A stretch of DNA of 64,000 nucleotides from Synechococcus sp. PCC 7335 (GTDB lineage: Bacteria > Cyanobacteriota > Cyanobacteriia > Phormidesmidales > Phormidesmidaceae): assembly GCF_000155595.1 (NCBI RefSeq), contig NZ_DS989907.1:76905-140904 (forward strand), written 5' to 3'. How positions within the stretch are numbered: position 1 is the first letter of the stretch; each line of letters begins with the position of its first letter. A program made the position numbers and the translations under genes. The notes under the pieces are model-generated. The model was not told the DNA's origin and searched no databases. It saw only the letters and a list, made by a program, of their open reading frames with translations. This document shows, one piece after another, positions 13,630-64,000 of the stretch.

Positions 13630-13646
13630 GTCTCTGGTATCGACAA

Positions 13647-14705: not shown

Positions 14706-14750
14706 TCTTCAATCCTGTTGTAGACTTCACCGAGAGAAGCCTTTGTCAGA

Positions 14751-15008: not shown

Positions 15009-15014
15009 GACAGA

Positions 15015-15578: not shown

Positions 15579-15607
15579 GGGTTGAAACCAAATGAACTTC
15601 AAAAAGT

Positions 15608-15624
15608 CTGTGCGCAGCAAAAGC
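15608..15624 (-). promoter_or_regulatory. GCTGCGC leader motif, copy 11
   Basis: Minus-strand CTTTTGCTGCGCACAGA followed by CTTTTTGAAGTTCATTTGG. About 34 bases upstream of the 15578 start. Confidence 0.55.
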
Positions 15625-15653
15625 AAAGCCCTCGCACAAAGGCAAAGGGCTTT
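15625..15653 (-). terminator. Hairpin upstream of 15015-15578 gene
   Basis: AAAGCCCT / AGGGCTTT arms. No intact gene precedes it within 300 bases on this strand except the region before 15660, so it may be left over from a lost cassette or act in the leader. Confidence 0.45.
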
Positions 15654-15693
15654 AATCGCGGTAACCATACGAACGAGAGCTGATGCTAGCTCT

Positions 15694-15873
15694 CTATGGG
15701 CTAGGCCGTTTTCCGTCTTCTGAAGACTTCATCAACGTCATTAAGCGTCGGGCCATTTCTCGTTTTATCTTTAGAGCCGTACCCTGCTGGATGCGCGTAA
15801 GTCGATATTCCACTTGTTGAGGTGTAAAATCGAACTCCTTAGCAAGCTGAACGTAAGCCTCTTGCAGTGTCAT
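15694..15873 (-). CDS. Small hypothetical protein, 59 aa, possible helix-turn-helix
   Basis: MTLQEAYVQLAKEFDFTPQQVEY followed by a basic helix (RMTRIQQ-type, here RLTRIQQ and KIKREMARRL). The helical, basic pattern is compatible with a small DNA-binding protein, but no family is recognised. Leader motif variant and hairpin upstream. Confidence 0.45.
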   Translation of the reverse strand: MTLQEAYVQLAKEFDFTPQQVEYRLTRIQQGTALKIKREMARRLMTLMKSSEDGKRPSP

Positions 15874-15895
15874 AACTTTGACCAAATGAACTTCC

Positions 15896-15913
15896 ATCAG
15901 TCTTTGCAAAGCA
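15896..15913 (-). promoter_or_regulatory. Degenerate leader motif, copy 12
   Basis: Minus-strand GCTTTTGCTTTGCAAAGACTGATGG; the core has changed to GCTTTGC, but the flanks CTTTTGC and GCAAAGA are kept and GAAGTTCATTTGGT follows. Confidence 0.45.
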
Positions 15914-15916
15914 AAA

Positions 15917-15941
15917 GCCCACTACAGAAGTTGCAGTGGGC
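15917..15941 (-). terminator. Terminator hairpin after 15967-16158 gene
   Basis: GCCCACTGC / GTAGTGGGC stem (one mismatch), a near copy of the hairpin at 16211-16235. Confidence 0.6.
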
Positions 15942-15966
15942 AGGCTGTAGGCTATCAACAGAAGTG

Positions 15967-16158
15967 CTAGGGCTGTGGTTGCCAATAGCCATCTACTTTC
16001 GTGTATGACATTTCCACTAGCGCAATTATTGTTGAACCGAACGCATCAGCCACATACGAACGCTGTTGGACTTCAGCTTCAAAAGCTTCGATCGTTTGCG
16101 GCCCCTCCTTGCGATACAGCTCTCTGATTGCTCTCTTTACCGAAACTTTCTTTTCCAT
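15967..16158 (-). CDS. Small hypothetical protein, 63 aa
   Basis: A strong AAGGAGAGG ribosome-binding site lies before the ATG. MEKKVSVKRAIRELYRKEGP suggests a winged-helix-like or helix-turn-helix N-terminal half, ending in VDGYWQPQP. Not recognised. The leader before it keeps GAAGTTCATTT of its neighbours. Confidence 0.55.
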   Translation of the reverse strand: MEKKVSVKRAIRELYRKEGPQTIEAFEAEVQQRSYVADAFGSTIIALVEMSYTKVDGYWQPQP

Positions 16159-16210
16159 TTAGTCCTCTCCTTGAAATTGAAATGAACTTCATAACAGTGG
16201 TGTGATCGCT

Positions 16211-16235
16211 GCCCACTACAGGAGTTGTAGTGGGC
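16211..16235 (-). terminator. Terminator hairpin after 16249-16536 gene
   Basis: Perfect 10-base arms GCCCACTACA / TGTAGTGGGC with a 5-base loop, 13 bases past the stop. Confidence 0.7.
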
Positions 16236-16248
16236 GGGCTGTGAGTTA

Positions 16249-16536
16249 TTAGAACGGAATCGCTTCTTCGTAAAGCTGACATCTAGCCGCATAGCCTTGA
16301 GACATCTGCTTCAGATCGGCAGCGGCACGAACCGCACAGAAGCCTGGGCTGTACTGGGCGGTACCGTCTGCTCGATGCAGCTGCCGCCGATACTGCCAGT
16401 TCTCGCACTGAGCGCAGACGGGCGGTGTGGCAACCAACGGTGTTTCGTCGGCTGTCCAAAATGCTCGATTGTCGTCTAGCGCAATTCCTCGCGCCTGCTC
16501 GTATTGGCAGTCGGCACTATATTGCTCGGTAATCAT
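16249..16536 (-). CDS. Cysteine-containing hypothetical protein, 95 aa
   Basis: Six or so cysteines, including CAQCENW at residues 41-47 and CAVRAAADLK further on, hint at metal or disulfide binding. Soluble, no family recognised. Motif copy 13 lies about 32 bases upstream. Confidence 0.55.
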   Translation of the reverse strand: MITEQYSADCQYEQARGIALDDNRAFWTADETPLVATPPVCAQCENWQYRRQLHRADGTAQYSPGFCAVRAAADLKQMSQGYAARCQLYEEAIPF

Positions 16537-16563
16537 CGTAAGGCTCTCAATACTTCAGCCTTA

Positions 16564-16579
16564 CTTAGCGCAGCGGCTT
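16564..16579 (-). promoter_or_regulatory. GCTGCGC leader motif, copy 13
   Basis: Minus-strand GAAGCCGCTGCGCTAAG followed by TAAGGCTGAAG. It precedes the 16249-16536 gene. Confidence 0.45.
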
Positions 16580-16615
16580 CAGTATACTCATCAAAAAGGC
16601 GAAGTCTGTCTAGTA

Positions 16616-17068
16616 TCAACAAATCTGCACGTAGCCGCGAGAGCCGTGCCGCTGCATGGATAGCAATGCCAGGTCTTTCAGTAGCAGGACGCGGCGGCGC
16701 AAACCTTCAACAGTATTCGCATCTGTACCGACATTGATGATTTGTGGACCATCGGTAGAGCCTGCTCCTAACTCCTTCAGTACCTGTGAGAGAAAGTTGT
16801 CTTCCGCACAGGTGAATTCCTCAATGGCGGCTCTGTTCTTGAGCAGCACAACATGACAGCGCTGGTACAAATCAGCAGCCGCCATTTCTCCGTAGCCGTC
16901 CTCTACAGGCAAAGCTAATAGTGGAATCAGCTTTGCAGCACTGGCTTGGTTCATTGAAACGACAACGCTAAAATCGTCAGCAGGTTCATCCGCCTTAATT
17001 GTTTCTATCTGGTTGTTGAAGGGATTGGTGAAACATCCGAATTGAGCTGGGTAAAAGTCTAATGACAT
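16616..17068 (-). CDS. Hypothetical protein, 150 aa
   Basis: An AGGAGAAA ribosome-binding site precedes the ATG. Soluble, alpha/beta, with an Ala/Leu-rich core (AAKLIPLLALPVEDGYGEM). Not recognised. It lies between the methyltransferase-like gene and the Cys-containing protein. Its leader lacks a clear GCTGCGC core. Confidence 0.6.
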   Translation of the reverse strand: MSLDFYPAQFGCFTNPFNNQIETIKADEPADDFSVVVSMNQASAAKLIPLLALPVEDGYGEMAAADLYQRCHVVLLKNRAAIEEFTCAEDNFLSQVLKELGAGSTDGPQIINVGTDANTVEGLRRRVLLLKDLALLSMQRHGSRGYVQIC

Positions 17069-17135
17069 TGCTTTTTCTCCTGGTAATGATTGTTTTCTCG
17101 GTTGATTGCTGATTTCTGAAAAGGCAGACCAAACC

Positions 17136-17168
17136 GACCGCTACACCTCGCGATAGCGGCCAGCGGTC
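17136..17168 (-). terminator. Terminator hairpin after methyltransferase-like gene
   Basis: GACCGCT / AGCGGTC arms with an internal CGATAGCGGC loop, 15 bases past the stop. Confidence 0.5.
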
Positions 17169-17182
17169 GTCAGATTGAGTCG

Positions 17183-18073
17183 TTAAAGATCGAACAAGGT
17201 AGTCTGCCGATTGAGAGTCAAATCTTGTTGCTTGCGTGTTTTCTTCTTCGCAGGCAAGCTGTCTGTGAACGGTGCCAAGTCGAACAGCGTTCCGGTAGGA
17301 CTGGGCGCTGCTTCCGCCTCAGGTGTTGGCGTAGGCTGAACGTCTTCAGCGAGGATGGACCGCACCGCCTGCACTACCTTCTGCGTTTTGCGATGCGGGG
17401 CTAGCCATTGATGGAACAGCCGAAGTTGTGGTGTAGCGCGATGTTCCCAGTACTCCATACTCAAGCTGTTGCCGTGGCGAACAACCGCCTGGAGACCCAA
17501 TGCAGATAGCTGAATGTAGGCCATGTTGAAGGCATCGCGGCTAACATCTGTACAGTCAAATTGCAAGCAGCTACGGGGATCTATGCCTTGCGAAGCAACT
17601 TCTTCTGCACTAGCGATCACCATCGCTCCGCCGCCAACAGCGGGTTCACAAACAGTGAGGATGCCTTTTCCCTTTAATTGTTCCTTCATGTCGCCAAAGC
17701 TCATCTTCGTCATCGCCTGACAAATGATATAAGGCGTGAAGAACTGGCCCCCACGCTTATTCAATAGCAGCTCATCTTCGGCAATCTCACCGAGGAAATC
17801 TTGATAGTTACCCTGATGAGCATAGAGAGTCAGGCCCAAGAGTTCAGAGAAGGTGATTAGCTCTTCTTTGCTGTAGGGCTTTATCCACTCCATATATTTC
17901 GTTTCCAAAGTCTCGAACGCCTCGTCTTTCGGCAGTTCACCTGCATGGTACGGTAACTGATGCAGCGTGATCGCCGCTATCTCTAGCCAGTCGGTGAAAA
18001 CGCCACCAACCGAACGGCTATAGCTCAGGCTTCTCAGCTTCTGACTGAATTCCTTTTGTTGTTCGTTATACAT
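17183..18073 (-). CDS. N6-adenine methyltransferase-like protein lacking NPPY motif
   Basis: 296 residues. GQFFTPYIICQAM (109-121) is the segment that opens the catalytic domain of type I HsdM-like N6 methylases, and EPAVGGGAM (143-151) is the SAM-binding motif I; DVSRDAFNMAYIQL (176-189) and GNSL (201-204) continue the Rossmann fold. The catalytic (N/D)PP(F/Y) motif expected after GNSL is absent: the sequence runs on as SMEYWEHRATPQ. The protein may bind SAM and DNA without methylating adenine, or act through a diverged motif. Similar short forms are common on plasmids. The C-terminal 60 residues are Pro/Glu and then Lys-rich. Motif copy 14 is upstream. Confidence 0.7.
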   Translation of the reverse strand: MYNEQQKEFSQKLRSLSYSRSVGGVFTDWLEIAAITLHQLPYHAGELPKDEAFETLETKYMEWIKPYSKEELITFSELLGLTLYAHQGNYQDFLGEIAEDELLLNKRGGQFFTPYIICQAMTKMSFGDMKEQLKGKGILTVCEPAVGGGAMVIASAEEVASQGIDPRSCLQFDCTDVSRDAFNMAYIQLSALGLQAVVRHGNSLSMEYWEHRATPQLRLFHQWLAPHRKTQKVVQAVRSILAEDVQPTPTPEAEAAPSPTGTLFDLAPFTDSLPAKKKTRKQQDLTLNRQTTLFDL

Positions 18074-18099
18074 TTGCGCTCAATGAATGCGTTCATACA

Positions 18100-18116
18100 T
18101 TCACTGCGCAGCATTC
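18100..18116 (-). promoter_or_regulatory. GCTGCGC leader motif, copy 14
   Basis: Minus-strand GAATGCTGCGCAGTGAATG followed by TATGAACG, the same spacing to TGAACG as copies 1-3. About 33 bases upstream of the methyltransferase-like gene. Confidence 0.5.
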
Positions 18117-18162
18117 GTTTGGCTATTGGGGCGCAGCCGATATAGTTTCACTGATCAAAGCA

Positions 18163-20316
18163 TCACTCAGCCATCTCTCCGTACTTTGGACTCCACCAAA
18201 CGCCTTTGCTAGTGAAGAAGTAGACCGCCTCTTTATGTTTCTTCTGCTGCCTAGCTTTCTCGTCAGAGCAGCGTAGCAACTTTTTGTCCTTACCGTCTTT
18301 TTTATAGCTGTACGCTTCCATCGGTTTTTGACAGACCGGACAGAGGTGCTTCGTTATCTCGGTGGTAGCAGCTTTCTTCCGTGGACCATCGCTCGTTTTC
18401 TCCCGAGGTGGTTCCCATTGCTTGCTGTACTTGGAATAAAACAGTACAGTGTTTTCGCACCCATTCTGGCACTTAAGAAAGTACTTTTTGGTGACCTTTG
18501 TACTAGGGACTTTTGCCATTGGTTTTTGACACTGAGGGCAAGGCACTTTAGAAACTTCTAAAGTGTGATCGCTTGTTCCGGTTGAGCCAGAAGAACAATG
18601 CTTCGAGACTATCTGCTGTGCCTGGGTCAGGGCTGGGACGAAATAGTTCTGGTTCCAGCCAGCCAGGTAGCGCTGCCATTCTTCTTGCCCTTCTGCAATC
18701 TGATCAAGTGCTTGTTCCATCTGGGCCGTGAATGCTGACTCTAAAAGGTCGGGCAGGGCTTCTCCTAAAAACGCATCCACTTCTAAGCCTAATTGTGTGG
18801 GCGAGAGAGAGCTTTTGGCAGCTTCTACATATGATCGCTGTTTCAGGGTTTTGATAGTGGGTGCGTAGGTACTGGGCCTGCCGATACCTCGACGCTCCAT
18901 CGTCTGCACCAGTTTAGGTTCGCTATAGCGTGGTGGCGGTTGAGTCTGCTTCTGTTCGTGTGCGGCTCGCTCTAGTGTCAACACTTGCCCCTGCTGAACG
19001 CTGGGAAGCTCTGCGTCTGCTTTGAGGTTGTTCCAGTAGCGAGTGTAACCGTAAAAGCTGACCACTTGTCCCTTTGCTTGCCAACAGACGGTCCCTGACT
19101 GGATGTTGATCTTAGTCTGCTGAACCTGCGCGGGTTTGCATCGCGAGGCAATCGCCCGTTTCCAGATCATCACATACAGCTTAAAAGCATTAGCTGTAAG
19201 TTCTTTCTTGAGCGTTTGAGAACTCTTGAAGATGTCAGTTGGCCGAATAGCCTCGTGCGCTTCCTGTGCGCCTTTAGTCTTACGATGCTTAGCCACCTTT
19301 TCAGGAACATTGTCTGCATCGTGGTTTTCTAACCACTGTCGTGCCTGAGAACAAAACTCGGGGCTGAGCATTGTGCTATCGGTTCGCATGTAGGTGATCA
19401 AGCCGGCCTCATATAGAGACTGCGCCACTTTCATTGTATGTTCGGGGCTGAAGCGTAACCGAGAGCCAGCCGTCTGCTGTAGCGAAGAAGTGATGAACGC
19501 TGGCGGTGGCTTCCGGCGTGTAGTCTTGCCTTCGATGCTCTTGACCTGGTGCGGATGCTGTTGCGCTATCTCGACTAAGCGATCGGCCTCCGTCACCGAA
19601 ATGACTCTAGTGGATTCTTTGGCCGAGCTCTCAGTCGGATTTTCGGCATCATCTGTTGTTTCTTCTTCGTCGCTGTCAGCTGTGCTGCCTTGGTAGTAGG
19701 CTCGAAAGCCTTCGGCGTAATCGACAAAGACACTCCAGTAGTCTTGCGGCTCGAACGCTTGAATTTCTCGTTCTCTCGCACAGAGGATATGCAGTGCTGC
19801 ACTCTGTACGCGCCCCATGCTCTTCGCTCCGTTGTTTAGTTTCCATAGCAGTGGTGAGCCCCGATAGCCAACTAGCTTGTCTAATACGGTACGGCAGAGG
19901 CCAGAGTGAACCAAGTTGAGGTCAATTTGTCTAGGTTGCGCGATCGCCGCTCTGACCGCAGCAGGGGTTATTTGACTATAGACCACCCGCTGAGGATTCT
20001 TCAGCTTCAGCGCCTCTTGAATATGCCAAGCGATTGTCTCTCCTTCTCTATCAGGGTCGGTGGCGATCACAACTGTCTTTACCTGCCGCACCGCTGCTCT
20101 GAGTCCTTTAATTACCTTTAAGCCACTTTCACCCCTTGGGACAAATCGGCAACGGATTGACTGGCCGTCTATATCAAATCCAAGCGAATCGTTGCCGTCG
20201 CTAGCTAGCTCTCGGATGTGGCCGACACTTGCTTTGACCAACCATTCGGGGCCAAGTATCTTAGAGAGCTTTTTAATTTTGCCAGGACTTTCTACAATTA
20301 GAAGTTTGTTGGCCAT
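18163..20316 (-). CDS. topA: DNA topoisomerase I (type IA)
   Basis: 717 residues. The TOPRIM domain shows LLIVESPGK with E9 and ATDPDREGE with D87, D89 and E91 for Mg. The active-site tyrosine is Y309 in GLITYMRTDS, with R311 beside it. C-terminal zinc ribbons are visible: CPQCQKP...LKCQNGC and a degraded CPVCQKP...LRCSDEK. TopA relaxes negative supercoils by single-strand passage; a plasmid copy may help replication, transfer or transcription of the element. Host TopA is normally chromosomal, so this is probably an extra copy. All key residues are intact. Confidence 0.95.
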   Translation of the reverse strand: MANKLLIVESPGKIKKLSKILGPEWLVKASVGHIRELASDGNDSLGFDIDGQSIRCRFVPRGESGLKVIKGLRAAVRQVKTVVIATDPDREGETIAWHIQEALKLKNPQRVVYSQITPAAVRAAIAQPRQIDLNLVHSGLCRTVLDKLVGYRGSPLLWKLNNGAKSMGRVQSAALHILCAREREIQAFEPQDYWSVFVDYAEGFRAYYQGSTADSDEEETTDDAENPTESSAKESTRVISVTEADRLVEIAQQHPHQVKSIEGKTTRRKPPPAFITSSLQQTAGSRLRFSPEHTMKVAQSLYEAGLITYMRTDSTMLSPEFCSQARQWLENHDADNVPEKVAKHRKTKGAQEAHEAIRPTDIFKSSQTLKKELTANAFKLYVMIWKRAIASRCKPAQVQQTKINIQSGTVCWQAKGQVVSFYGYTRYWNNLKADAELPSVQQGQVLTLERAAHEQKQTQPPPRYSEPKLVQTMERRGIGRPSTYAPTIKTLKQRSYVEAAKSSLSPTQLGLEVDAFLGEALPDLLESAFTAQMEQALDQIAEGQEEWQRYLAGWNQNYFVPALTQAQQIVSKHCSSGSTGTSDHTLEVSKVPCPQCQKPMAKVPSTKVTKKYFLKCQNGCENTVLFYSKYSKQWEPPREKTSDGPRKKAATTEITKHLCPVCQKPMEAYSYKKDGKDKKLLRCSDEKARQQKKHKEAVYFFTSKGVWWSPKYGEMAE

Positions 20317-27507: not shown

Positions 27508-28785
27508 TCAGCACCTAACCTTGACTATCTCCTTGAGCCGTGTCGTGTACCGAGGCGATCGCCACTGCTGCCGCATTCCCCAAGACTTTCGCTGCTTGCC
27601 CTTCTCTAGTCCTTGAGCCGCAAAGCGAACGGTGCCTCTGCCCATCTTGGCGTTAAGTGAGTCCATCAGCGCCATCAGTTCATCGGACTGCTCGTGGTCG
27701 GTAGAGCAAAACAGATTGCCCTGTACGGTGGTGGCCGGGGCCAGGTCGAACAGCATAACGCCGCACTTGTGGTACTCAAACTCAGGCCGATACAGCTGCG
27801 CCATACATGCCCTGGCCGCATGAATAATTTCCCTACTATCGCTGCTAGGCACTGTGAAAGACCAGGTGCAGCTATTGCTGTACTGCGCCTCATGCTGACG
27901 GAATCTGTTGGTTTGCAAGAATACCTGCAATCCGCCACAACGACTGCCCTGCCTCCGTAGCTTTCCGGCTGCTCTAGCGGCGTGGTCAGCGATCGCCTCC
28001 AACAACAGATGTTTCTCAGCAATCATCCGCCCGAACGAGCGCGAACACATGATGTTCTTCTTCGGCTGAATCTCTTCTAATCCCAGACAAGCCGTTCCGC
28101 GCAATTCGTGAACGATCCGCTCTGCGACCACGTTGAACACCTGTCGAATTGTTCTTGGTTCAGCGGCTCGCAAGTCAGCCGCAGTCTCAATACCAATCGC
28201 ATTGAGCTTGAGCGTCCACCGTCTACCGATGCCCCAGATATTCCCAACTGCAATAGTAGGAAGCACCTCATCTTGGAGGGTGCGATCACACAAGTTAAAA
28301 ACACCGCTCGTTGTTCGTTTCTTAGCTACATAGTTAGCAACCTTAGCCAGCGTCTTAGTTGGGCCGATGCCTACACCGATAGGTATACCCGTCCACTGGT
28401 GGACTTTCTTTTGCATCTGGCGTCCGTAGTCAGTGAGGTCGAGGTGAGCAAAGCCATCCAGTTGCAAGAAGGCTTCATCGATTGAATAGACTTCCATATC
28501 CGGCGTAAACGTGCCTAAACATGCCATCACCCGCTGAGACATATCACCGTAGAGTGCGTAGTTAGAAGAGAAAACTGCAACATTGTGCTGAGCGCAGATT
28601 TTCTTATATTTATGCCACGGCCCGCCCATCGGCACCTCTAACGCTTTCAACTTTGGCGATCGAGCAATGAAACATCCGTCATTGCTCGACAAGACCCCGC
28701 AGGCGCGATGCTCTAGCTCAGGCCGGAATACCCGCTCGCACGATACATAGAATTGGTTGCAATCACAAAGGGCGAAGATCGGCAT
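27508..28785 (-). CDS. umuC: Y-family DNA polymerase V catalytic subunit
   Basis: 425 residues, normal for UmuC. D8 in LCDCNQFY and D103-E104 in YSIDEAF are the metal-binding catalytic residues of the palm; a helix-hairpin-helix (VGNIWGIGRRWTLKL region), and a little-finger domain follow. It performs error-prone translesion synthesis with UmuD'. No umuD lies beside it, so it must rely on a UmuD from elsewhere or act alone. The upstream region has a LexA-like box at 28941. Confidence 0.95.
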   Translation of the reverse strand: MPIFALCDCNQFYVSCERVFRPELEHRACGVLSSNDGCFIARSPKLKALEVPMGGPWHKYKKICAQHNVAVFSSNYALYGDMSQRVMACLGTFTPDMEVYSIDEAFLQLDGFAHLDLTDYGRQMQKKVHQWTGIPIGVGIGPTKTLAKVANYVAKKRTTSGVFNLCDRTLQDEVLPTIAVGNIWGIGRRWTLKLNAIGIETAADLRAAEPRTIRQVFNVVAERIVHELRGTACLGLEEIQPKKNIMCSRSFGRMIAEKHLLLEAIADHAARAAGKLRRQGSRCGGLQVFLQTNRFRQHEAQYSNSCTWSFTVPSSDSREIIHAARACMAQLYRPEFEYHKCGVMLFDLAPATTVQGNLFCSTDHEQSDELMALMDSLNAKMGRGTVRFAAQGLEKGKQRKSWGMRQQWRSPRYTTRLKEIVKVRC

Positions 28786-33816: not shown

Positions 33817-34899
33817 TCAAGCGGCTTTAGCCGCCAGTAGTCCAGTTGATCGATGGAGAGGCTGAATTTTCTTTGGAGAGAAGTATCCGATCCTTTTCCA
33901 GTCTTTGTTTGATAGCGAGACATGACTTTTGGTATCGCCACCAACCCATCCATAGAAGACTTCTCCTTTCTTAAATGCTTTAACAAAATCGCCTTTGCGT
34001 ACCCCGTGCCGCGTTGTTGTGCCGCCATACTTGCGCCGATTGCCACCCTTTGCAGGCACCGCCAAATGAAGCTGACGGCGACTAACCAGCGGGCGACGAA
34101 TGATGCAAAACTCTGAATCAGTAACAACGACTGACCCAAACCAATCGCCACCGTCTGCATCAATGCGATGGACTTTGCGGTAAGCCGTAAATTGCGTAGC
34201 AGCTAGGGCAACGCCATCGACAGCGTGGGAATCCGGCGATTGCTCTGCCTTATTGCGCGACTTTTCTAAACAAAGATGCCTGCGCATATTGGCAGTCTCC
34301 CAGCCATAGCGAGTGACGACAGGGACGCCGAAGACGGCTAGTTGCTCTAGCATCCAGCGTTGGCCCACCATTACAGGGCTAAATCCTTTATTGCCACTCG
34401 CCTTAACGTATTCGTAGACGATAGAACTGATAGGAAACAGCTTGAACAACTCACGCAAAACACGTAGCTCTAACTGCCGGTTAGCGCGGATAGAGGGCGG
34501 TACTTTGCGTGACTTACGATTGGAAAACCGCGACTGTCGGTGTGCTCGCTGGTCGAAGGCGACCTTACGATTTATTCGCCGCCCGCGCCGCCCGCGCCGC
34601 ATCATTGCCCGAAACTCCATCCGTTCCTTTACCCGCTTGAACGGTAGAACAAGATGACCTTTGAGCAAAGTTGCCTGCGCCGACTGCACCCCAACGCCGC
34701 TGTACAGCTTGCCAGGGTCTACGCCAACTGCAATGCCTTGCGCCTCACGCCCAGATGGTTCAGCGACTAGCTGAACGTACCAAACGCCTAGCTTCGACCA
34801 TTGGCCAACGGCTTTGCCACTTTCTACCCAGCGTCGCGCCCGTTGGGGCGTTGTGGGCATCAGTGGTTTACCGTCTGGATCTAGAACTGGAATTCGCAT
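33817..34899 (-). CDS. isrB: IsrB, RuvC-only IscB-family RNA-guided nickase
   Basis: 360 residues. PLMP at 12-15 is the hallmark domain of IscB/IsrB. RuvC residues are D61 (VGVDPGK), E163 (VYEYVK) and H225/D228 (SHAVDG); the Arg-rich bridge helix is RRGRRGRRINRK (101-112). The HNH insert that IscB has between RuvC-II and RuvC-III is absent, as only about 60 residues separate E163 from D228, so this is the IsrB class, which nicks the non-target strand under omega RNA guidance. The C-terminal YGGTTTRHG..RKGDFV segment is the target-motif-interacting domain. Intact. Confidence 0.85.
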   Translation of the reverse strand: MRIPVLDPDGKPLMPTTPQRARRWVESGKAVGQWSKLGVWYVQLVAEPSGREAQGIAVGVDPGKLYSGVGVQSAQATLLKGHLVLPFKRVKERMEFRAMMRRGRRGRRINRKVAFDQRAHRQSRFSNRKSRKVPPSIRANRQLELRVLRELFKLFPISSIVYEYVKASGNKGFSPVMVGQRWMLEQLAVFGVPVVTRYGWETANMRRHLCLEKSRNKAEQSPDSHAVDGVALAATQFTAYRKVHRIDADGGDWFGSVVVTDSEFCIIRRPLVSRRQLHLAVPAKGGNRRKYGGTTTRHGVRKGDFVKAFKKGEVFYGWVGGDTKSHVSLSNKDWKRIGYFSPKKIQPLHRSTGLLAAKAA

Positions 34900-50467: not shown

Positions 50468-52399
50468 TTAGCACTTGTCGATGCCGAGCGCGGCCTTGAG
50501 TACATCGATGTCTTTGCCGCGATTAGCCATTCTGCCGTGAAGACCATAGTGGTCATGATGCTCTTGCAATTCCTGAGCCAATTCGCCTTCGAGTACTCGT
50601 TTGATGATCGCCTGATTGCGAGTAGAGAGCTGCTTGAGTGTTGATTGGTTAATCAACCATCTTTCGCTGTCATCTCTAGCCTGCTGGTCGTTATACTGCA
50701 TAATCTCCCGAATGAGCATAGCCACTTCGCGTTCCACCTGGTCGGAATAGCCTTTTTCCGGTGTAGAGCGTTCTTGCGGAGCTGGGGGAGAGGCCCCACG
50801 ATGCTCGCCTTCGATGCCAGCCGTCATCGGTTGACTCATAGGCAATGGTTGACTGACAGGTAACGAGATCGCTCCGTTTGGCTGAGTGCCCCCAATACTT
50901 AAGAGCTGTTGTAATTGCTTGAGCTGCTGCTGAGCGGCCTGGAACTGAGTGAGCTGAGCACGAAGTGCGGCGACCTCATCGTTAGCTGTGGTCAGTTGTT
51001 TTCTAAGCCGTTCACTTTCCTGCTTCAAGTGACTATTAAACTCATGTGCCATTGAGAGAGACTGTTCAATCACTTTATGAGTGCCCGCGCCGTTGCCGGC
51101 CATCTTCTCGGCTTCAGCCAGCTTCGCTCGCAGCTGTTCATTCAGTCGCTGCTCATCAGCAATCTGCTGATTCACCGCCTCTACCTGTTCGGCTAGTTCG
51201 ATAGGCTGACAGCCGAAGTTATCCGCCAAAGAGATAGCGGCATCAGCGGCATCTAAGATGAGCTGCATCGTATCCTGCTGAGTGCCTAAACCAAGCTCCC
51301 CTTGAATTGCCAAGACGCGCTGCTTATCGCTCTCGGTAATGCCAATCCGACTCATCACTAGCTCCTCTGCTGGCTCAACTGCTTCTGTTGGTTTAAACGC
51401 GGCGATCGCCTCCACACCTGGCTCATTCAACCGCACTCCTTTACGCTGCCCTCCATGTGCCGCAATGACCTGATCGCTGATTTCATAGTCGAAGTAATGA
51501 CGACTGGCGGCAAGCGATCGCCTAAGTTCTGTCTGCCCTGCCTCCAACACTTTGTAGTGGCCTTGAATAGCGGCTCTAAACTCTAGTTCTGGCACCTCCG
51601 GTGGACAGAACCAGAAGGTTGCAATCGTGCTGTACACAGAGCGAAAGAGATGGGTATAGAGATTGTCCTTTCCTTCCCTAGCCGGTACCAAATCGTGAAA
51701 GCAGCGATCACAAGCTTGGGCGATCGCATGACTATAGGCGCGATTCATATCCCGATTACTCATGCCTTGAGTATCGAGCAGTGATCGCAAGCGTCTAGTT
51801 GCAGAGATTACGCTACCTGCCTTTACTAGCGTCGGTAGCTCGAAGCGAAGTGATGTAGGTTCACCGCGTCGTTTGACCGCGCCTGTGAACCAGACAGACC
51901 AATCAGAAGCGGGTTCAAACTGAGCGGTTTGAATCACCTCAGCAGCGCGTCGTCCAGTCGCTACCGCTAAGCCTGCTGCCAGTTCACTCCAGTCACCAGA
52001 CTGCAACAGTACAGCGGCGCGTCGAGCAATCTCATTGGGGTCGTCAATCGGCTTCGCAGAGCGCTGCGATACCGCCTGCTCAGAAGGCATATTGATCTCT
52101 GTCCACTCATCAGGTGTAAAGCCGACATTAGCTAATGCCGGATGATCGGCATCAATGGCCTTAAGTACTCGTCTGACATCGGTAATAGGGTTCTTCTGCT
52201 GCCTATGCGTCTTCAACCCCCGCTGCACCATTCGTTCTTTTACGAGCGCATCCCACCGCCGCGCCCGTCGATGGCCAGCGGCTGTATCAGCGACATTTAC
52301 CACTTGCGGCAGTAGCTCTTTAAGTAGTGACTTCAACCACTCCGTTGAACAGAGCGCGATCGCTTTCGCCAAGTCGGGCTCAAGTGTTTTTGCCATCAT
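50468..52399 (-). CDS. Protelomerase (telomere resolvase)-family protein, 643 aa
   Basis: The catalytic residues of tyrosine recombinases of the TelK/ResT type can be picked out: R150/R151 in ATGRRAAEVI, K176 in GAVKRRG, H250 and R253 in THLFRSVYS, H281 in IQGHYKVLEAG, and Y302 (or Y305) in SRHYFDYEI. The order and spacing fit the protelomerase catalytic domain. A C-terminal coiled coil (about 400-500) and a helical tail follow. Protelomerases cut palindromic DNA and make hairpin ends of linear replicons; some homologues may act as plain recombinases. It begins five bases from the 52405-52776 gene and a 41-bp palindrome lies behind it. Confidence 0.75.
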   Translation of the reverse strand: MMAKTLEPDLAKAIALCSTEWLKSLLKELLPQVVNVADTAAGHRRARRWDALVKERMVQRGLKTHRQQKNPITDVRRVLKAIDADHPALANVGFTPDEWTEINMPSEQAVSQRSAKPIDDPNEIARRAAVLLQSGDWSELAAGLAVATGRRAAEVIQTAQFEPASDWSVWFTGAVKRRGEPTSLRFELPTLVKAGSVISATRRLRSLLDTQGMSNRDMNRAYSHAIAQACDRCFHDLVPAREGKDNLYTHLFRSVYSTIATFWFCPPEVPELEFRAAIQGHYKVLEAGQTELRRSLAASRHYFDYEISDQVIAAHGGQRKGVRLNEPGVEAIAAFKPTEAVEPAEELVMSRIGITESDKQRVLAIQGELGLGTQQDTMQLILDAADAAISLADNFGCQPIELAEQVEAVNQQIADEQRLNEQLRAKLAEAEKMAGNGAGTHKVIEQSLSMAHEFNSHLKQESERLRKQLTTANDEVAALRAQLTQFQAAQQQLKQLQQLLSIGGTQPNGAISLPVSQPLPMSQPMTAGIEGEHRGASPPAPQERSTPEKGYSDQVEREVAMLIREIMQYNDQQARDDSERWLINQSTLKQLSTRNQAIIKRVLEGELAQELQEHHDHYGLHGRMANRGKDIDVLKAALGIDKC

Positions 52400-53611: not shown

Positions 53612-54163
53612 TTATTTGTACATAGAGATTACCCTCTTTATCTTCTTTAAGTAGACATCGCGTACTTCTTTAGGGGATTCGATCACGCAGCGATCGCCAT
53701 AGCGAGAAACGCGCTGAAGGAACCATAGCAGGTTAGAAATTCGTTGGGTCACTCTGGTCCAGCTTTGGCCATCAACAGACACCACTTCGATCTCTTTAAT
53801 TCTAAGATCTTCAGGTTTTGGCCGATAAGTAAAACAGACCCTGAAAGTAATCTCTATAGAATCTAGCCCTTCGCTGCGCCACTTTGCATCTGTCGGAATA
53901 AGCTGGGCATCATCCCCAACAAAAAATAGTCTATTGTGGCCTAGCTCGGGTAGGTCGGGGCGATTCCCCGGCTTGGCTGTCCAGCAGTGCAAGTATTCTC
54001 TATCATCGTGTTGCACAACCTCTGCATATTGAATGAGCCGTTCTTTACCGTGATAATTGAGGATAAATGCCTGCTGCTGAATAATTGAGTTCTTGGCTTG
54101 CTGTACCCAATCAGCACTTCTACCATCTAGCGACTTTAGCGCTTCCTTTAGAGGCTGAGCCAT
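53612..54163 (-). CDS. WYL-domain protein, N-terminally truncated, 183 aa
   Basis: The sequence runs QQAFILNYHGKERLIQYAEV ... REYLHCWTAKP ... LPELGHNRLFFVGDDAQLIP and RVSRYGDRCVIESPKEVRD, the pattern of cyanobacterial WYL regulators, some of which are annotated as CRISPR-associated TIGR03985. Such proteins usually begin with a helix-turn-helix and reach about 300 residues. Here the N-terminus is missing: the first codons (MAQPLKEAL) overlap the 5' end of a truncated IsrB gene on the opposite strand. It may be a pseudogene. No Cas genes are nearby. Confidence 0.6.
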   Translation of the reverse strand: MAQPLKEALKSLDGRSADWVQQAKNSIIQQQAFILNYHGKERLIQYAEVVQHDDREYLHCWTAKPGNRPDLPELGHNRLFFVGDDAQLIPTDAKWRSEGLDSIEITFRVCFTYRPKPEDLRIKEIEVVSVDGQSWTRVTQRISNLLWFLQRVSRYGDRCVIESPKEVRDVYLKKIKRVISMYK

Positions 54164-55140
54164 CCGGCAGGGCTACCCAGCCAATAGCGGTTGGCATTGA
54201 TCCAGGAAAGATGTTTTCTGGTGTCTCTGTCCAGTCCGCTAAAGCCACATTGTTTACAGCTCATCTACTTTTGCCGTTCAAACGGGTTAAGGATCGGATG
54301 GAGAGTCGCGCCATGATGCGACGTGGTAGGCGTAGTAGGCGAATTGATCGTAGCTTGCCTTTTGAGTTACGGAATCATCGACAGAAGCGGTTTGATAACC
54401 GCAAACAGAAGAAAGTGCCCCCTAGCATTAAAGCTAATCGCCAACTGGAGTTAAGGGTTGTGACTGAGTTATCTCAGTTATTCCCTATCTCTAAAATCGT
54501 TGTCGAATACGTCAAGGCCCGCACTAAGAAAGGTTGTTCGTTTAGTCCTGTCCAAGTTGGGCAAAAGTGGGCTATTGAACAACTAAAAAAACTTGCTTCT
54601 GTTCGTACTCTCTACGGTTGGCAGACTGCCACCATGAGAGACCACTTAGGGCTGAGTAAGTCTAAAAACAAGGCTGAGCAAACCCCACAGTCTCACGCTG
54701 TTGATGGTGTAGCCCTAGCCGCTAGCGAGTTTACAGAATACCGCAAGTATCACCGCAATGACTCAAGGGGTGCTGACTGGTCTGGTTTAGTCAATATCAC
54801 GTCAGCTAACTTTGTAGTCATTCACCGTCCCCCCGTCAGCCGTCGTCAACTTCATCTAATGGTTCCCGCCAAAGGTGGCAATCGTCGGAAGTATGGGGGC
54901 ACTGTAACCCGCCACGGGTTCAGGAAAGGTGATTTGGTCATTGCTGAAAAGAAAGGTATCCAGTCAATCGGCTGGGTGTCAGGAGATACCAAAAATCAGG
55001 TTTCGGTATCGGATTTTGACTGGAAGCGAATCGCACAGTTCACAGCTTCCAAGGTCCAGCTCCTCTATCGCTCTACGGGGTTGCTGGTTAATTGCCCGCA
55101 GAGATTGTCAGTCCGCAACGCATCGAGCGTAGCAGCCTGA
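54148..55140 (+). pseudogene. isrB: IsrB gene lacking its PLMP domain
   Basis: Homology to the intact IsrB starts at EAEPSGR (residue 46 of the full protein) and runs to the end: VGIDPGK, bridge helix RRGRRSRRIDRS, VVEYVK, SHAVDGVALAA and YGGTVTRHGFRKGD are all kept. The N-terminal 45 residues with PLMP are missing and replaced by sequence antisense to the WYL gene. No omega RNA region remains upstream, so it should be inactive even though the RuvC residues persist. Confidence 0.75.
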
Positions 55141-59621: not shown

Positions 59622-59837
59622 ATGGTATTGCTTTGGGCGAAGGCGATATTATCTATTGATCCAGAGGTCTGTCATGGAAAGCCCTGCATCAGGGGCTTGC
59701 GCTACCCAGTAGAATTTATCCTAGAACTACTAAGTGCAGGCATGAGCCATGCAGAGATTCTGTCGGGCTACGATGATTTGGAAGAGGATGATATCCTTTC
59801 AGCCCTGTTGTATGCGGCTCGATTATATCGGGCGTGA
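59622..59837 (+). CDS. DUF433 protein (antitoxin-like), 71 aa
   Basis: LSIDPEVCHGKPCIRGLRYP and VEFILELLSAGMSHAEILSGYDDLEEDDI are the DUF433 signature. In cyanobacteria these small helix-turn-helix proteins often pair with a DUF5615 PIN-like toxin. No such toxin follows here. Start uncertain: ATG at 59622 or TTG at 59604. Confidence 0.8.
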   Translation: MVLLWAKAILSIDPEVCHGKPCIRGLRYPVEFILELLSAGMSHAEILSGYDDLEEDDILSALLYAARLYRA

Positions 59838-59888
59838 TGTCATGTTATGGGACACAGGTATAGAGGCTGAGATTTAGGGTGTTGAGCT

Positions 59889-60371
59889 ATGCTAGTCGAA
59901 CAATTACCATTAGCCAAGGGTAAGACAACTTGTCTTATGGAAAAAGATCTTTTATACAAGGCGTCATCAGCGCTAGCAGAGAAGGGATTCACCTCAGAGC
60001 AGATTAGAGAAGTCGTTGGTGAAGATGCCATTTTGTGTGTTGAATGTGGCTTACCTGCGACGTTAGTTTGTGATGGATACATCCCCCGGTGGCTAATGAA
60101 GTGGGGGCCAACAGTCAGTCGAATCCTTCAAGACCCTAAGACAATAAGCGAAGTAAAACTGAAAGATGATAATGCTTTCACTCGTAGACGAATATACGAA
60201 ACAGGATTGCTAAAAAGCGATATTTTATACGAAACATGCGATCGGCCCCTTTGTAAAGACTGTCGAGAGACGACTGGATATACCATCTACTGTGGAGAAG
60301 ACGGTGGAATTGTTAGCCATGATTACTGTCAAGAATGTGCGGGATACATACCTCAACTGAGAAGAGAATAG
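59889..60371 (+). CDS. Cysteine-rich zinc-binding protein, 160 aa
   Basis: CVECGLPATLVCDGY (about 51-65) and CDRPLCKDCRETTGYTIYCG then HDYCQECAGY form two likely zinc-binding clusters. The rest is soluble. No family recognised. Confidence 0.6.
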   Translation: MLVEQLPLAKGKTTCLMEKDLLYKASSALAEKGFTSEQIREVVGEDAILCVECGLPATLVCDGYIPRWLMKWGPTVSRILQDPKTISEVKLKDDNAFTRRRIYETGLLKSDILYETCDRPLCKDCRETTGYTIYCGEDGGIVSHDYCQECAGYIPQLRRE

Positions 60372-60579
60372 TGACTATGATGGATTTTCGGCAGATGAGA
60401 CAGATGTATGCCTGTATCTGCCAGGAGCGGTCTGCGACGATCTGGTTAATTATGAATTCACTAATGTGACGAATTTGGCAATAGATTATCGAGGCAGTTT
60501 GTTTGAACCGGCTTTTGAGATGGCCAGAAACCTCGATCGAAACTTGGTTTTCCCAGCACGCAAAGGGAGGATTTTATGA
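60360..60579 (+). pseudogene. C-terminal fragment of an unidentified gene
   Basis: An open frame without a good start reads DETDVCLYLPGAVCDDLVNY, then IDYRGSLFEPAFEMARNLDR and ends RKGRIL-stop. It looks protein-like and overlaps the end of the Cys-rich gene in another frame. A short gene with a non-ATG start remains possible. Confidence 0.4.
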
Positions 60580-60735
60580 GTCCATGAACGTTCTCTGCTG
60601 GTATTGAACCCCAATTTAATTATGATGATGAGAGGTTGCATCATATTTGGCACAGTCTTACTAACGGTCGCTTTTATCAGGCATGAAATGACATCAGGTT
60701 TGTTATCTTGAGAGAGGGAGCAAGAATACAAAGTT

Positions 60736-61590
60736 GTGAAACGGCAATCCAAACGGCCTGACTACGAAGCATTACGGTATACGATCAATCGAGCGCGATA
60801 CGCTAAGCGTACTGGTCACTGCAAAGTGCAATGGGCCGAACTAAAGCAGGCGTTAGTAACAGCCTGGGAGTTTGGCTACATCCGCTACCCTGGGGGGGTG
60901 AAGTCCGTTAGAGGCAACACCAAAGCCGGAAGAACTATCTTGCTAGAGCTAGCTGCTCAGTTTAAGGACGCTAAGCTAGTGGTCAAAACTACTTTGAAGA
61001 AGGAATATGGATGGACAGATCGTCTCATCGCAAAGTATCAACTAGAGCCGGACTTGCTGGTCGAAAATCCTCACTATAGGCGTGGTGCTGCGATGCATCT
61101 CTATGCGCTCAATCGAGTGAAGCGCATTGCCTCAGAAAATGAAGTAGCGGCTGAGTTAGCGAACGTTCTAGCCCAGCGCCCAGCGCGAAAGCAGGCGGCG
61201 CAGCAGGCAGCGCGAACCCGTTCTATTGCAGAACAGGAACGTCAAGAAGCAGCTCATCAGTCTTTTCACATGTTCTTAGATGGATTGGCCTTTATTGTCC
61301 CTACCTGGTCTGTAGAAGCGCTATTAAAGCAAGCCCTTAGCCGTTACAACACTTTTAATTATGGTCTATCTGCTTCTATCTCAGACGATGCTGACTTTCT
61401 CTACCAGATAGCACGAACCTATCTGTACTACGATTGTACGAACTATGAAGCGCTACTCCAGCTATACGATAGCGATCGCCAGCGAGCCGATATTCGAGCG
61501 AAGGTAGAGGAAGCTGTAGAAGCCGCTTATCCGAATTTGCTGGAGAGAGTGCAAATGGTTAAGGCGAGATTGGAAGGCAATCGTTTGTAA
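60736..61590 (+). CDS. Hypothetical protein, 284 aa
   Basis: GTG start. The N-terminal third (KEYGWTDRLIAKYQLEPDLL, then MHLYALNRVKRIA) resembles a segment seen in several cyanobacterial phage/plasmid proteins that combine Gly-Trp-Thr and LYxLxRV motifs. An Ala/Arg/Gln-rich coil follows, then a helical domain. Function unknown. Confidence 0.6.
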   Translation: MKRQSKRPDYEALRYTINRARYAKRTGHCKVQWAELKQALVTAWEFGYIRYPGGVKSVRGNTKAGRTILLELAAQFKDAKLVVKTTLKKEYGWTDRLIAKYQLEPDLLVENPHYRRGAAMHLYALNRVKRIASENEVAAELANVLAQRPARKQAAQQAARTRSIAEQERQEAAHQSFHMFLDGLAFIVPTWSVEALLKQALSRYNTFNYGLSASISDDADFLYQIARTYLYYDCTNYEALLQLYDSDRQRADIRAKVEEAVEAAYPNLLERVQMVKARLEGNRL

Positions 61591-61790
61591 TTTTTATTAT
61601 GAAGCCTCTCCCACCGAGCGTGTCGCTATAGACTGTTTACGCTGGTCTGTCCTGAAGTGATGGTTCGTACTTTTGCTATTCAGCTATTGTAGGCTTTCTG
61701 ATCCATTGGTTGTTTAAGTATTGCATAGGCAGCATTCAGCAAGAGAACGGACTGAGTAGCCTCTGCTGAAATCTCGTCGCAGCTAAACAC

Positions 61791-62261
61791 TCAATTAGGC
61801 GAAGAAGTCATTCTGTTGAAGTAAGCGGCAACGACATCGAATGCACCGATTAAAGCAATGAGAGATAGGGTAGCGAAGGTAGCCAGGGAGAATACCGGAG
61901 ATAAGGTCTCACCAGCAGGGAAGAATAGTTCTTCTAGCTGATCGGTCATTCCATGCCAAACAAAGAAAGCAACTAGGCTCCCACAAGTTGCTAGAGCGCC
62001 TGATGCGAGGTAGTAGAGCAGAAGCATCATCTTATTCTCTTTCTCTTCTTCTGCTTCCTCTGGGCCTTCTTTAGAGCTACTTTTGACCACATCTACTAGT
62101 CCGAATAAGATATAGCCTTCGTAGCTAAATGTCATCCAAAAAACGACATCGCTAAGCAGACTTTCCCAGCCAAGTCTAGAAAAGATAACGGCTAGAGGCA
62201 GAAGAAAGACAGCGTAGAGATAAAACCAGCGTGTTCCCGAAGTTAGGCGTAGATTTATCAT
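61791..62261 (-). CDS. Integral membrane protein, 156 aa
   Basis: Four hydrophobic segments with an acidic/Lys-rich cytoplasmic loop (SSSKEGPEEAEEEKENK) in the middle. Not recognised. Confidence 0.6.
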   Translation of the reverse strand: MINLRLTSGTRWFYLYAVFLLPLAVIFSRLGWESLLSDVVFWMTFSYEGYILFGLVDVVKSSSKEGPEEAEEEKENKMMLLLYYLASGALATCGSLVAFFVWHGMTDQLEELFFPAGETLSPVFSLATFATLSLIALIGAFDVVAAYFNRMTSSPN

Positions 62262-62519
62262 TGGCTTGCAAAATTTTATTTAGTCAAGAGACAGAGTAGA
62301 TTGTGGATTTCTGGAAATTATAGCGGTTCTTAAAGAGTGACCACATGACTATAGACCCAGTACATAACTCTTAATCACCAACGCTATCATATCTATTCGG
62401 AGTCTAAAAGAGCAGAATAAAGAGTATAGATATAGATAAAGGAGAGTCTTTCTATTTCAATAGGGCGCGATCGGCTGTTCATTGGTTTAGAGGAAAGCGA
62501 TTGCTTGGCTCAGAGAGGT
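62262..62519. other. Gene-free stretch
   Basis: No supported gene; AT-rich with repeated AAAGAGTATAGATATAGAT-like sequence. Confidence 0.4.
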
Positions 62520-62585
62520 TTTCACGCCAAACGCCTGCCACTGTTTGACTCTGCGCTTAACTCCTCAATATCCTAATGTACGTCC
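62520..62585 (-). pseudogene. Fragment duplicated from the 45821-46015 gene
   Basis: TTCACGCCAAACGC and CTCAATATCCT match 45833-45898 with several changes, so it is a degraded copy of the small membrane gene's 3' end. Confidence 0.6.
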
Positions 62586-62670
62586 TTTTCGGATGCCGCT
62601 CAAGGTGATAGTGCGATAGTATCGGGATAGCTGAGTACTTTTTGGATTGGGTGTGTGACATCTGCGTCCT

Positions 62671-63231
62671 ATGTTGCTTGACAGATTGCTGAGATATCGC
62701 AAAAAACCGCCGCGAGATGAGATGCGAGTTAGGGTAGAGACTATCTTAGGAGGAAAGCCGCTACCCAATATATTTTGGCGGAATATTTTGACTAAGCTCA
62801 GAGATAAAGCTTCACGTACTCCCTTCCGGCCAGCCTTATATAAGGCATCACTGTCGCAATGTGCTCAGTTATTAGAGATGCAGCAGTTTGCGATATCGAG
62901 CGTTCATGCAGGCTTAGACAATGCTGTGAATCCCTCTGAGCTACTGACGTTTCTCCAACAAAGTGGTCTAGATGTTGAATTTAACATTCTACTAAAACAT
63001 CCAGATTTTCCTGTGCAAACGCCTATGACGTTATGCACATCGTTTGCGGTCAGATACACTGTTGAAGATTTTCCAACTCAATTCGTTCAGAGATTTGGAT
63101 ATCATCTTGGCAGTGGTTTGATCGTCAGAAATATAAGCGGGGAAACGTTGATAGATAGCTCCTTTATTGTTAATTTGGGGTCTCCAAATTGGGGGAAACG
63201 TCGTTATCTTTTGCATATTAGCTCCCGATAG
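62671..63231 (+). CDS. Hypothetical protein, 186 aa
   Basis: Basic N-terminus (LLRYRKKPPRDEMRVRVE), soluble alpha/beta body with VHAGLDNAVNPSELLTFLQQ. Not recognised; no strong ribosome-binding site seen. Confidence 0.5.
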   Translation: MLLDRLLRYRKKPPRDEMRVRVETILGGKPLPNIFWRNILTKLRDKASRTPFRPALYKASLSQCAQLLEMQQFAISSVHAGLDNAVNPSELLTFLQQSGLDVEFNILLKHPDFPVQTPMTLCTSFAVRYTVEDFPTQFVQRFGYHLGSGLIVRNISGETLIDSSFIVNLGSPNWGKRRYLLHISSR

Positions 63232-63302
63232 CGAGTAGCAGCGCAGGCTATACACACACTTTTTGTTAATTCTTCTGGGCATCCCCTTTAAGCACCTAAA
63301 TA

Positions 63303-63510
63303 CCGGAGATGTTTCTGACGCTAGATCGTCTTCTCATCTTTTCCTGCCCATTCTGCGTACTCGTTATAGGTGTAGTAGGATGTCTCATTCTTATAGGAGT
63401 AAAATAAAGCCTCGCCAGTTGGTCGGACTACTATACATCCTACCAGTCGCCCTTTTACGGAGGGTGTTGATTGTGGTTGACCTGTCTCTTCGCTATCCGT
63501 TGATGGGGAG
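63303..63510 (-). pseudogene. Mosaic of two gene fragments
   Basis: 63303-63340 matches the 3' end of the 58040-58372 gene (TCTGACGCTAGAT, GTCTTCT), and 63345-63508 is nearly identical to 55655-55818 in the 55455-55865 gene. Joined head to tail in the same orientation, the result has no function of its own. Confidence 0.75.
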
Positions 63511-63587
63511 CCTGCTTATCTGCTGGACAATCTTTTCTTGCTTTCAAATATTCTTGTCAATCTTGGTTAAGAACCTATAATTTTTAC

Positions 63588-63614
63588 CCCCACCTGATAC
63601 CGAGGTGGGGGTGT
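63588..63614. repeat. Solitary IsrB-type end hairpin
   Basis: ACCCCCACCT-GATACCG-AGGTGGGGGT, a perfect 10-base stem without a T-run. It resembles the end hairpin at 55155 and may be the remnant of an IsrB element. Confidence 0.55.
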
Positions 63615-63628
63615 GCAGATCGTAATCA

Positions 63629-63931
63629 TCAATTCATAGGGAATGAACTAAGCAGTTTGTAGGCAATGAGGGAGCATATATATAGACCTATTGTTAATGC
63701 AAACCCGCAAATAAGATTTAACTTTGTTTGTGTATAGGCTTCCCCCGAAAAAAGGGAGTCGTGGTGGAAATAGGCTTCAGCTACTTCAATAATTTTCTGA
63801 GCTATAGCTGTTTCAACTGTTTGATACAGTCTTGGAGGAATGCTTATCAATTCACTTCGAATATCTATCAGCACTTCATCTGAAACCGTTTTCGGCTTCT
63901 GGCTTATTTCTACAGAGACAGACGGAATCAC
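63629..63931 (-). CDS. Tail-anchored hypothetical protein, 100 aa
   Basis: GTG start at 63931. Soluble helical part with one C-terminal membrane span (LICGFALTIGLYICSLIAY). It begins six bases after a partial upstream gene, suggesting an operon. Confidence 0.5.
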   Translation of the reverse strand: MIPSVSVEISQKPKTVSDEVLIDIRSELISIPPRLYQTVETAIAQKIIEVAEAYFHHDSLFSGEAYTQTKLNLICGFALTIGLYICSLIAYKLLSSFPMN

Positions 63932-63937
63932 GGGGAC

Positions 63938-64000
63938 TCAGATTTTGGCTATGAAAGCAGCAGCCGCTTCGATGCGTGGCTCTACTTTCCTGCCAGAGCT
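63938..64000 (-). CDS. 3' end of an unidentified gene (partial)
   Basis: Open from the window edge for 20 codons (VEPRIEAAAAFIAKI-stop). Same strand as the next gene, six bases apart. Function unknown. Confidence 0.35.
   Translation of the reverse strand, partial: SSGRKVEPRIEAAAAFIAKI

Follow-up and report, generated by a model that had tools for sequence, protein, structure and literature searches.

Results

Does the open reading frame (ORF) at 50468-52399 mark a linear replicon in Synechococcus sp. PCC 7335? The ORF lies in a window of 64,000 nucleotides (the whole stretch of DNA analysed here, to which coordinates refer unless a contig or locus is named). This window spans bases 76905-140904 of contig C4, which is 156,025 bp long and one of the 11 contigs of the 5.97-Mb genome. 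The original prediction, made from the sequence, assigned the ORF product to the protelomerases, enzymes that make the covalently closed hairpin telomeres of linear plasmids and prophages, and proposed that its target lies elsewhere or that the enzyme does another job. The main features are the following:

50468..52399, minus strand: telomere resolvase (protelomerase) homologue, 643 aa (ORF, PF16684 match, profile matches to solved telomere resolvases)
51485..52039, minus strand: catalytic domain, residues 121-305, with R150, K176, H250, R253, H281 and Y302 (Pfam stretch and residue conservation)
50906..51199, minus strand: probable coiled-coil segment, residues 401-498 (coiled-coil model matches weak, below cut-off)
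50480..50743, minus strand: conserved C-terminal segment, residues 553-640 (all 12 aligned homologues have N570 and H615; no family match)
59653..64000, no strand: inner 4.3 kb of the right-hand C4 inverted terminal repeat (C4 self-comparison), which continues to contig base 156025 and has its mirror copy at 1-19476

Family assignment of the ORF product

The ORF translation starts at an ATG on the minus strand. In the Pfam search, the ResT-TelK_cat family (PF16684) matched the ORF with an E-value of 4.5e-32 and a score of 111.5 bits (cut-off 27), and positions 7-181 of the 181 of this telomere-resolvase catalytic domain fall on residues 121-305. ResT of Borrelia and TelK/TelN of telomere phages belong to the same Pfam family; ResT and TelK differ from the window enzyme in that their single-sequence matches to it are weak (E-values of 0.67 for ResT and 0.0032 for 2v6e, which is presumably TelK), while the solved chains named "protelomerase", which we take to be TelA, were matched at about 1e-11. 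The profile of 12 relatives gave 3.5e-23 to the "protelomerase" chains, 2.7e-15 to 2v6e and 7.9e-8 to the chain named ResT. The NCBI TelA model reached 56 bits, far below its cut-off of 800. From these comparisons, the ORF is read as encoding a telomere resolvase homologue, a family assignment far beyond chance, and the Pfam and profile matches bear out the family named in the original prediction. The residues listed there as the resolvase arrangement are also in place: R150, K176, R253, H281 and Y302 are identical in 27/27 aligned cyanobacterial homologues, and position 250 is H in 20 of them, K in six and S in one. We considered and rejected an ordinary site-specific tyrosine recombinase: up to an E-value of 0.1, Pfam returned, besides the resolvase domain, only weak matches to two coiled-coil models and no integrase family.

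The window enzyme shares its catalytic domain with TelA of Agrobacterium tumefaciens C58, as judged from the profile match to the chains taken to be TelA. Unlike in TelA, this domain lies near the N-terminus and is followed by a long tail, and the H-to-Y distance is 21 residues (11 in TelA). As a guess, the coiled-coil and C-terminal segments of the tail may serve dimerisation or telomere binding, and the segment 553-640 could be the one that binds DNA. The AlphaFold model of the enzyme is poor (mean pLDDT 49.2, from 4 sequences). No relatives of the enzyme were found in the viral contigs searched.

Palindromes and other genes in the window

The longest exact arms in the window measure 12 bp at spacers of 0-8, in agreement with the earlier statement that it holds no perfect palindrome of at least 40 bp. 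The two "candidate palindromes" proposed at 50383 and 49166 did not hold up, as the exact-arm scan gave no exact arm of at least 7 bp within 60 bp of either. A palindromic target inside the window was therefore rejected. In the whole of C4, no perfect palindrome with an arm of at least 15 and a spacer of 0-8 was found, and a palindromic target on this contig is expected only as a half-site at the uncaptured tips.

Unlike in telomere phages, neither phage structural nor lysis genes appeared among the 22 ORFs searched of the window's 63 ORFs of at least 120 aa. A 1744-aa ORF (3512-8746) had no Pfam or NCBIfam match at an E-value of 0.01. The family search gave these other features:

164-1039: weak ParA-like match
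1084-2364: TnpB
18163-20316: topoisomerase
27508-28785: UmuC-type polymerase V subunit
33817-34899 and 54085-55140: two RRXRR-domain proteins

Ends of contig C4 and of its sister contig C2

The self-comparison of C4 identified an inverted terminal repeat of 19.5 kb (1-19476 and 136557-156025, 99.96% identical). The first base of the contig pairs with the last, the match is exact for 9,716 bases and then goes on to 19.5 kb, and the two copies differ by at most one mismatch and seven single-base gaps. No direct overlap of the C4 ends, as in a circle, was found. Contig C2 (774,507 bp) carries a second resolvase gene, 76% identical to that of the window, together with a 29-residue fragment, and its two ends form an inverted repeat of 41.5 kb (1-41451 and 733036-774507, 99.91% identical). 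The comparison covers the readable contigs C1-C6, as C7-C11 read N: the other four, C1 (15 kb per end), C3, C5 and C6, have no resolvase gene and no inverted terminal repeat (0/4), and the ends of C3 overlap directly over 3.6 kb, as a circle gives. Among readable contigs, the resolvase-bearing C4 and C2 are thus the only ones with inverted terminal repeats.

The genome-wide search with C4 bases 1-4000 gave a full match only at the two ends of C4 itself, and no continuation beyond the outer end of the repeat was found in the readable assembly. Pieces of the C4 repeat of 48-183 bp are present in C3, and none in C5 and C6; the C2 repeat, near its inner end, is common with C5 over 1.3 kb at 93%. 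In 17 other genomes, the first 3 kb of C4 bases 1-4000 were unmatched. Two adjacent ORFs in the C4 terminal repeat (L004:4042-5573) resemble, by eye, DprA/Smf and a ComF-like phosphoribosyltransferase.

These ends bear on the alternative of a circular C4 in which a large inverted repeat kept the assembler from closing the circle; the enzyme would then be a tyrosine recombinase that does something else. Such a circle, with its inverted copies side by side, would yield an identical contig, and the C4 tips are not captured; but the terminal inverted repeats are confined, among readable contigs, to the two that carry a resolvase gene, and nothing readable extends past the outer end of the C4 repeat (C7-C11 being N). 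Together with the plasmid records described below, this leaves a circular C4 improbable.

Other causes of the repeats were tried and rejected. Concerning a fold-back artefact, read-through at a tip would leave a palindrome inside the contig, and there is none in C4. Ribosomal operons were set aside as the content of terminal repeats, with no Rfam match in L122, L121, L115, L124 and L004. Separately, the cumulative GC skew of C4 and C2, taken as a test of an internal origin of replication, has no clean V; GC skew is described in PMC5987646 as unable to locate cyanobacterial origins.

No tip palindrome is present at the contig ends of C4 and C2. The end of C2 cuts an ORF, and so this contig stops short of its true tip. 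The first ORF of at least 80 aa in C4 begins 395 bp inside the contig end, but the first 106 bp correspond to one portion of a longer dispersed repeat, so that this end may also fall short of the tip. The contig ends of C4 and C2 are therefore not to be taken as telomere sequence. The starts of the contigs of three close relatives (L041-L043) have no palindrome with an arm of at least 14.

Published linear plasmids of Nostoc

Linear replicons are called rare in cyanobacteria in a passage of PMC5987646. The same source describes, for Nostoc N6, seven circular plasmids and three linear ones (pNPM8, pNPM9 and pNPM10); palindromic reads, coverage and mate pairs led its authors to conclude that the linear ones have inverted repeats and covalently closed hairpins. 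Its text does not contain the word protelomerase. The tblastn search with the enzyme of pNsp_d, a plasmid of Nostoc ATCC 53789, listed 20 records, which include all three N6 linear plasmids (3/3) and none of the circular ones (0/7; pNPM7 was confirmed to be present among the records searched). The homologue of pNPM9 covers 81% of the query and lacks its N-terminus. In Nostoc ATCC 53789, both linear plasmids were matched (pNsp_d being the query, and pNsp_f with an 83-residue fragment) and none of the ten circular plasmids was (0/10, with plasmid shapes as published).

The three pNPM plasmids resemble C4 in being cyanobacterial and in having terminal inverted repeats and a resolvase homologue, and differ from it in repeat size, 0.16-2.73 kb versus 19.5 kb in C4 and 41.5 kb in C2. 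Repeats as long as those of C4 and C2 could come from the copying of one end onto the other. In the databases pNPM9 is filed as circular, and yet it is published as linear; a circular label is thus weak evidence.

Ends of related plasmid records

A total of 27 cyanobacterial plasmid records had a resolvase match, and 16 of them were examined (eight whole, eight by 10-30 kb per end); records of Pseudomonas, Xanthobacter and Vibrio also matched and are outside these 16. Inverted terminal repeats, tip palindromes or fold-back are present in 10/16: Chondrocystis NIES-4102 plasmid2 and plasmid3, pLBY, Fischerella NIES-4106 plasmid4 and plasmid7, pNsp_d, pNPM9, pNPM10, pC052_H and Calothrix NIES-22 plasmid8. 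Chondrocystis plasmid2, filed as linear, has a perfect inverted terminal repeat of 8629 bp, and the sequence of its first 189 bp is palindromic, running through the tip; plasmid3, also filed as linear, has a 93-bp palindrome at one end and no repeat at the other. In pNsp_d, repeats of 5.1 kb are accompanied by a short read-through palindrome at the start. Nostoc C052 pC052_H consists of two inverted duplications with the same tip motif at the centre of each. Among the records filed as circular, Calothrix NIES-22 plasmid8 has a read-through palindrome near both ends, and Fischerella plasmid4 and plasmid7 have terminal repeats of 2.9 kb and 1.5 kb. The signature of pLBY is degenerate (366 bp at 81%). 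Four records (L110, L139, L223 and L220, the last being pNPM9) are labelled circular, yet their ends are inverted repeats or tip palindromes.

No signature was found in the other 6/16, i.e. pLBX, Gloeothece 7822 Cy782202 and four records labelled circular (NIES-3755 plasmid1, Fischerella NIES-4106 plasmid2, Gloeothece PCC 7424 pP742401 and Calothrix PCC 7716 p8). These four, with their related enzymes and no terminal repeat, agree with a circular C4; against this stand the several circular-labelled records that bear terminal repeats or tip palindromes, and the label of pNPM9 that contradicts its publication.

The reading of homologous replicons through the tip into their own complement points, at the level of sequence, to closed hairpins. 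This also bears on the alternative that C4 is linear with open ends capped by terminal proteins, as in Streptomyces plasmids, its resolvase homologue being incidental. Long terminal inverted repeats are typical of Streptomyces-type protein-capped linear plasmids, and Fischerella plasmid6 (see below) has terminal repeats and no detected resolvase; however, the relatives of the window enzyme sit on replicons with such read-through tips, and we consider open ends very unlikely, even more so than a circle. Since the hairpin tips of the homologous replicons lie at their ends, the target of the window enzyme is most likely at the ends of C4, outside the window, which is the first of the two options left by the original prediction.

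Contigs of related genomes, including chromosome-sized ones

Furthermore, we read both ends of 23 resolvase contigs of relatives, mostly from assemblies in few pieces. Inverted terminal repeats are present in 6/23 (G080:C1, 893 bp at 76%; G013:C3, 1.5 kb at 81%; G218:C4, 875 bp at 80%; G049:C1; G049:C7; and G025:C7), and two more have internal inverted arms or fold-back (G035:C2 and G153:C1). In G035:C2, arms of 9 kb at 96% flank 1.2 kb that is non-palindromic; although counted here as having inverted arms, this contig has directly overlapping ends, as a circle would. Neither inverted repeats nor fold-back were found in 15/23; among these, G153:C2 has only a gene fragment, and G228:C2 has the same size and start as the NIES-3755 record. 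Many of these contigs, and of the six plasmid records without a signature, may be fragments or may have been cut at arbitrary points.

Four contigs (G153:C1, G073:C1, G137:C54 and G269:C72) were picked for their mirrored gene pairs, which is a biased choice, and all four are large inverted duplications. The mirrored resolvase genes lie in 4.1-kb arms around a run of N in G269:C72 (L182) and in a 17.5-kb palindrome in G137:C54 (L180); the palindrome of G153:C1 (L181) is unmatched further out, and its extent is thus stated only as at least 20 kb. The duplications of these three contigs look like assembly through the tip. In G073:C1 (4,681,111 bp, a one-contig genome), a palindrome of 6159 bp (L111:7111-13269) has 3079-bp arms around TATCAGATA and contains two head-to-head resolvase genes; this has the look of a linear chromosome whose two hairpin ends were joined during assembly.

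Two other contigs of chromosome size have the gene. In G080:C1 (5,458,034 bp; L112/L148), the resolvase lies about 8 kb from the right end, which stops exactly at GATAATAC, and the left end shows no clear tip; a linear chromosome is possible. In G049:C7 (5,458,963 bp; L122, L152), perfect inverted repeats of 6551 bp are present, the left copy at the contig end and the right copy 720 bp inside its end, and the left copy has no Rfam match.

Controls and spread of the domain

Among controls without a detected resolvase, 1/16 has a signature: 0/4 in the own genome, 0/8 in the contigs of relatives (read for inverted ends over 10 kb, versus at least 10-20 kb for the test contigs) and 1/4 in the plasmid records. 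The exception is Fischerella NIES-4106 plasmid6 (L227, AP018304, labelled circular), with perfect terminal inverted repeats of 2213 bp, on which tblastn of eight resolvases found no resolvase and whose ends are unmatched by those of plasmids 4 and 7 of the same strain. The link between gene and ends is thus not strictly in cis; plasmid6 may depend on a resolvase acting in trans, carry one too divergent to detect, or have a different type of end.

A refinement compatible with the hairpin reading of C4 is that the resolvase also acts in trans, C4 and C2 sharing their enzymes. The presence of two 76%-identical copies in one cell and the lack of a detectable copy on plasmid6 agree with it, and a precedent is described for Agrobacterium biovar 1, where the resolvase acts from another replicon, its gene being on the circular chromosome (PMC13293297). 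Shared specificity, however, hangs on the telomeres of C4 and C2, neither of which is captured, and we regard such sharing as possible but rather doubtful.

The telomere resolvase domain was found in 76/388 genomes of the class (75 above cut-off), a count that may include some remote relatives, as the cut-off may admit them: Synechococcus elongatus is above the Pfam cut-off, and the small genomes G067 and G086 reach only 31-33 bits. The chromosome of Synechococcus elongatus is circular. In total, 18/39 of the related records and contigs with the domain have hairpin-type or inverted ends (10/16 and 8/23).

Enzyme clades and tip shapes

We generated a maximum likelihood tree of 27 enzymes, rooted at the midpoint, in which, according to a warning of the program, long branches meet. 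It divides the enzymes into three groups. One of them (support 100/100) includes the window enzyme, the C2 copy, three close relatives and the enzymes of Chondrocystis plasmid3, pLBY, NIES-3755 plasmid1, G073, G080, G035 and G013. The pNPM9 and pNPM10 enzymes belong to a different clade from the window enzyme (that of pNPM8 is outside the tree).

Four tip palindromes near the group of the window enzyme have an odd centre (TC-A-GA). The centre is TATC-A-GATA in Chondrocystis plasmid3 and G073, whose enzymes are in the tree, and in Chondrocystis plasmid2, whose enzyme is outside the tree and 42% identical to that of the window over half its length. The tip of G218:C4, whose enzyme is also outside the tree, reads GTAAGTTC-A-GAACTTAC; from its size and end pattern, this contig is probably a relative of pLBY. 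The terminal sequence of G080:C1 is one half of the odd-centred core, and the G035 junction has the same central sequence as the G073:C1 palindrome, with non-palindromic flanks.

In the other two groups, the palindromes that were read have even centres: Nostoc and Calothrix have TTTAAA, G025 and G153 have GAATTC, and G137 has TTAATTAA. The Nostoc N6 linear plasmids end in AAATTAACRGAC, for which the read-through of relatives gives the TTTAAA centre. The Fischerella ends begin with GGTTAG and are not read through. The core resolved by TelA is likewise even, with the six bases TCATGA according to PMC3558466, in contrast with the odd centre at the tips near the clade of the window enzyme. Judging from the tip sequences, an odd centre would point to cleavage with another spacing. 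The core of the C4 ends would be an odd-centred TC-A-GA palindrome, as in the nearest relatives, although we are less sure of this than of the linearity of C4 and of the role of the enzyme.

Discussion

To the question of whether the replicon is linear, the evidence favours a positive answer: C4 has no circular overlap and has inverted ends of 19.5 kb, C2 is alike, and homologous replicons have hairpin tips. Very probably, C4 is a linear hairpin-ended plasmid and the window enzyme is its resolvase, which would keep the replicon linear. In this respect C4 would be similar to the replicon of TelA, a linear chromosome with hairpins; we infer hairpins at C4's own ends, on which the window enzyme would act.

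If the system works as those of TelA and ResT do, a hairpin-ended molecule replicated in both directions would give a circular dimer with telomere junctions. The window enzyme would bind the duplicated telomere and cut both strands through Y302, forming a phosphotyrosine; each half would then be folded back and resealed, giving two covalently closed hairpins. This mechanism of dimer resolution is established for the family and is extended to the window enzyme by analogy.

Hairpin plasmids are already known in Nostoc, and a structural paper lists cyanobacteria, in a passage that gives no reference, among the bacteria with hairpin-ended linear chromosomes. Among the matches listed in the open-licence literature, none ties cyanobacterial linear replicons to the resolvase family or describes the clade of the window enzyme. 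As far as can be told, the class-wide link, the odd centre of the tip, terminal repeats of this size and the hints of linear main chromosomes are new. More tentatively, somewhat short of what we would call probable, cyanobacteria could have a widespread hairpin-telomere system, in which one clade resolves odd-centred (TC-A-GA) telomeres, and so cuts with a spacing unlike that of TelA, and which maintains large plasmids and some main chromosomes (G073:C1, G080:C1 and G049:C7), their ends having been joined or unrecognised in assembly.

Hairpin or inverted ends, in replicons of which some are filed as circular, call for a change in the assembly and finishing of such genomes. The family is also a source of new telomere enzymes, perhaps with a target of a new shape, that are useful for the production of closed linear DNA, and the resolvase clades provide a means of testing the evolution of telomere specificity.
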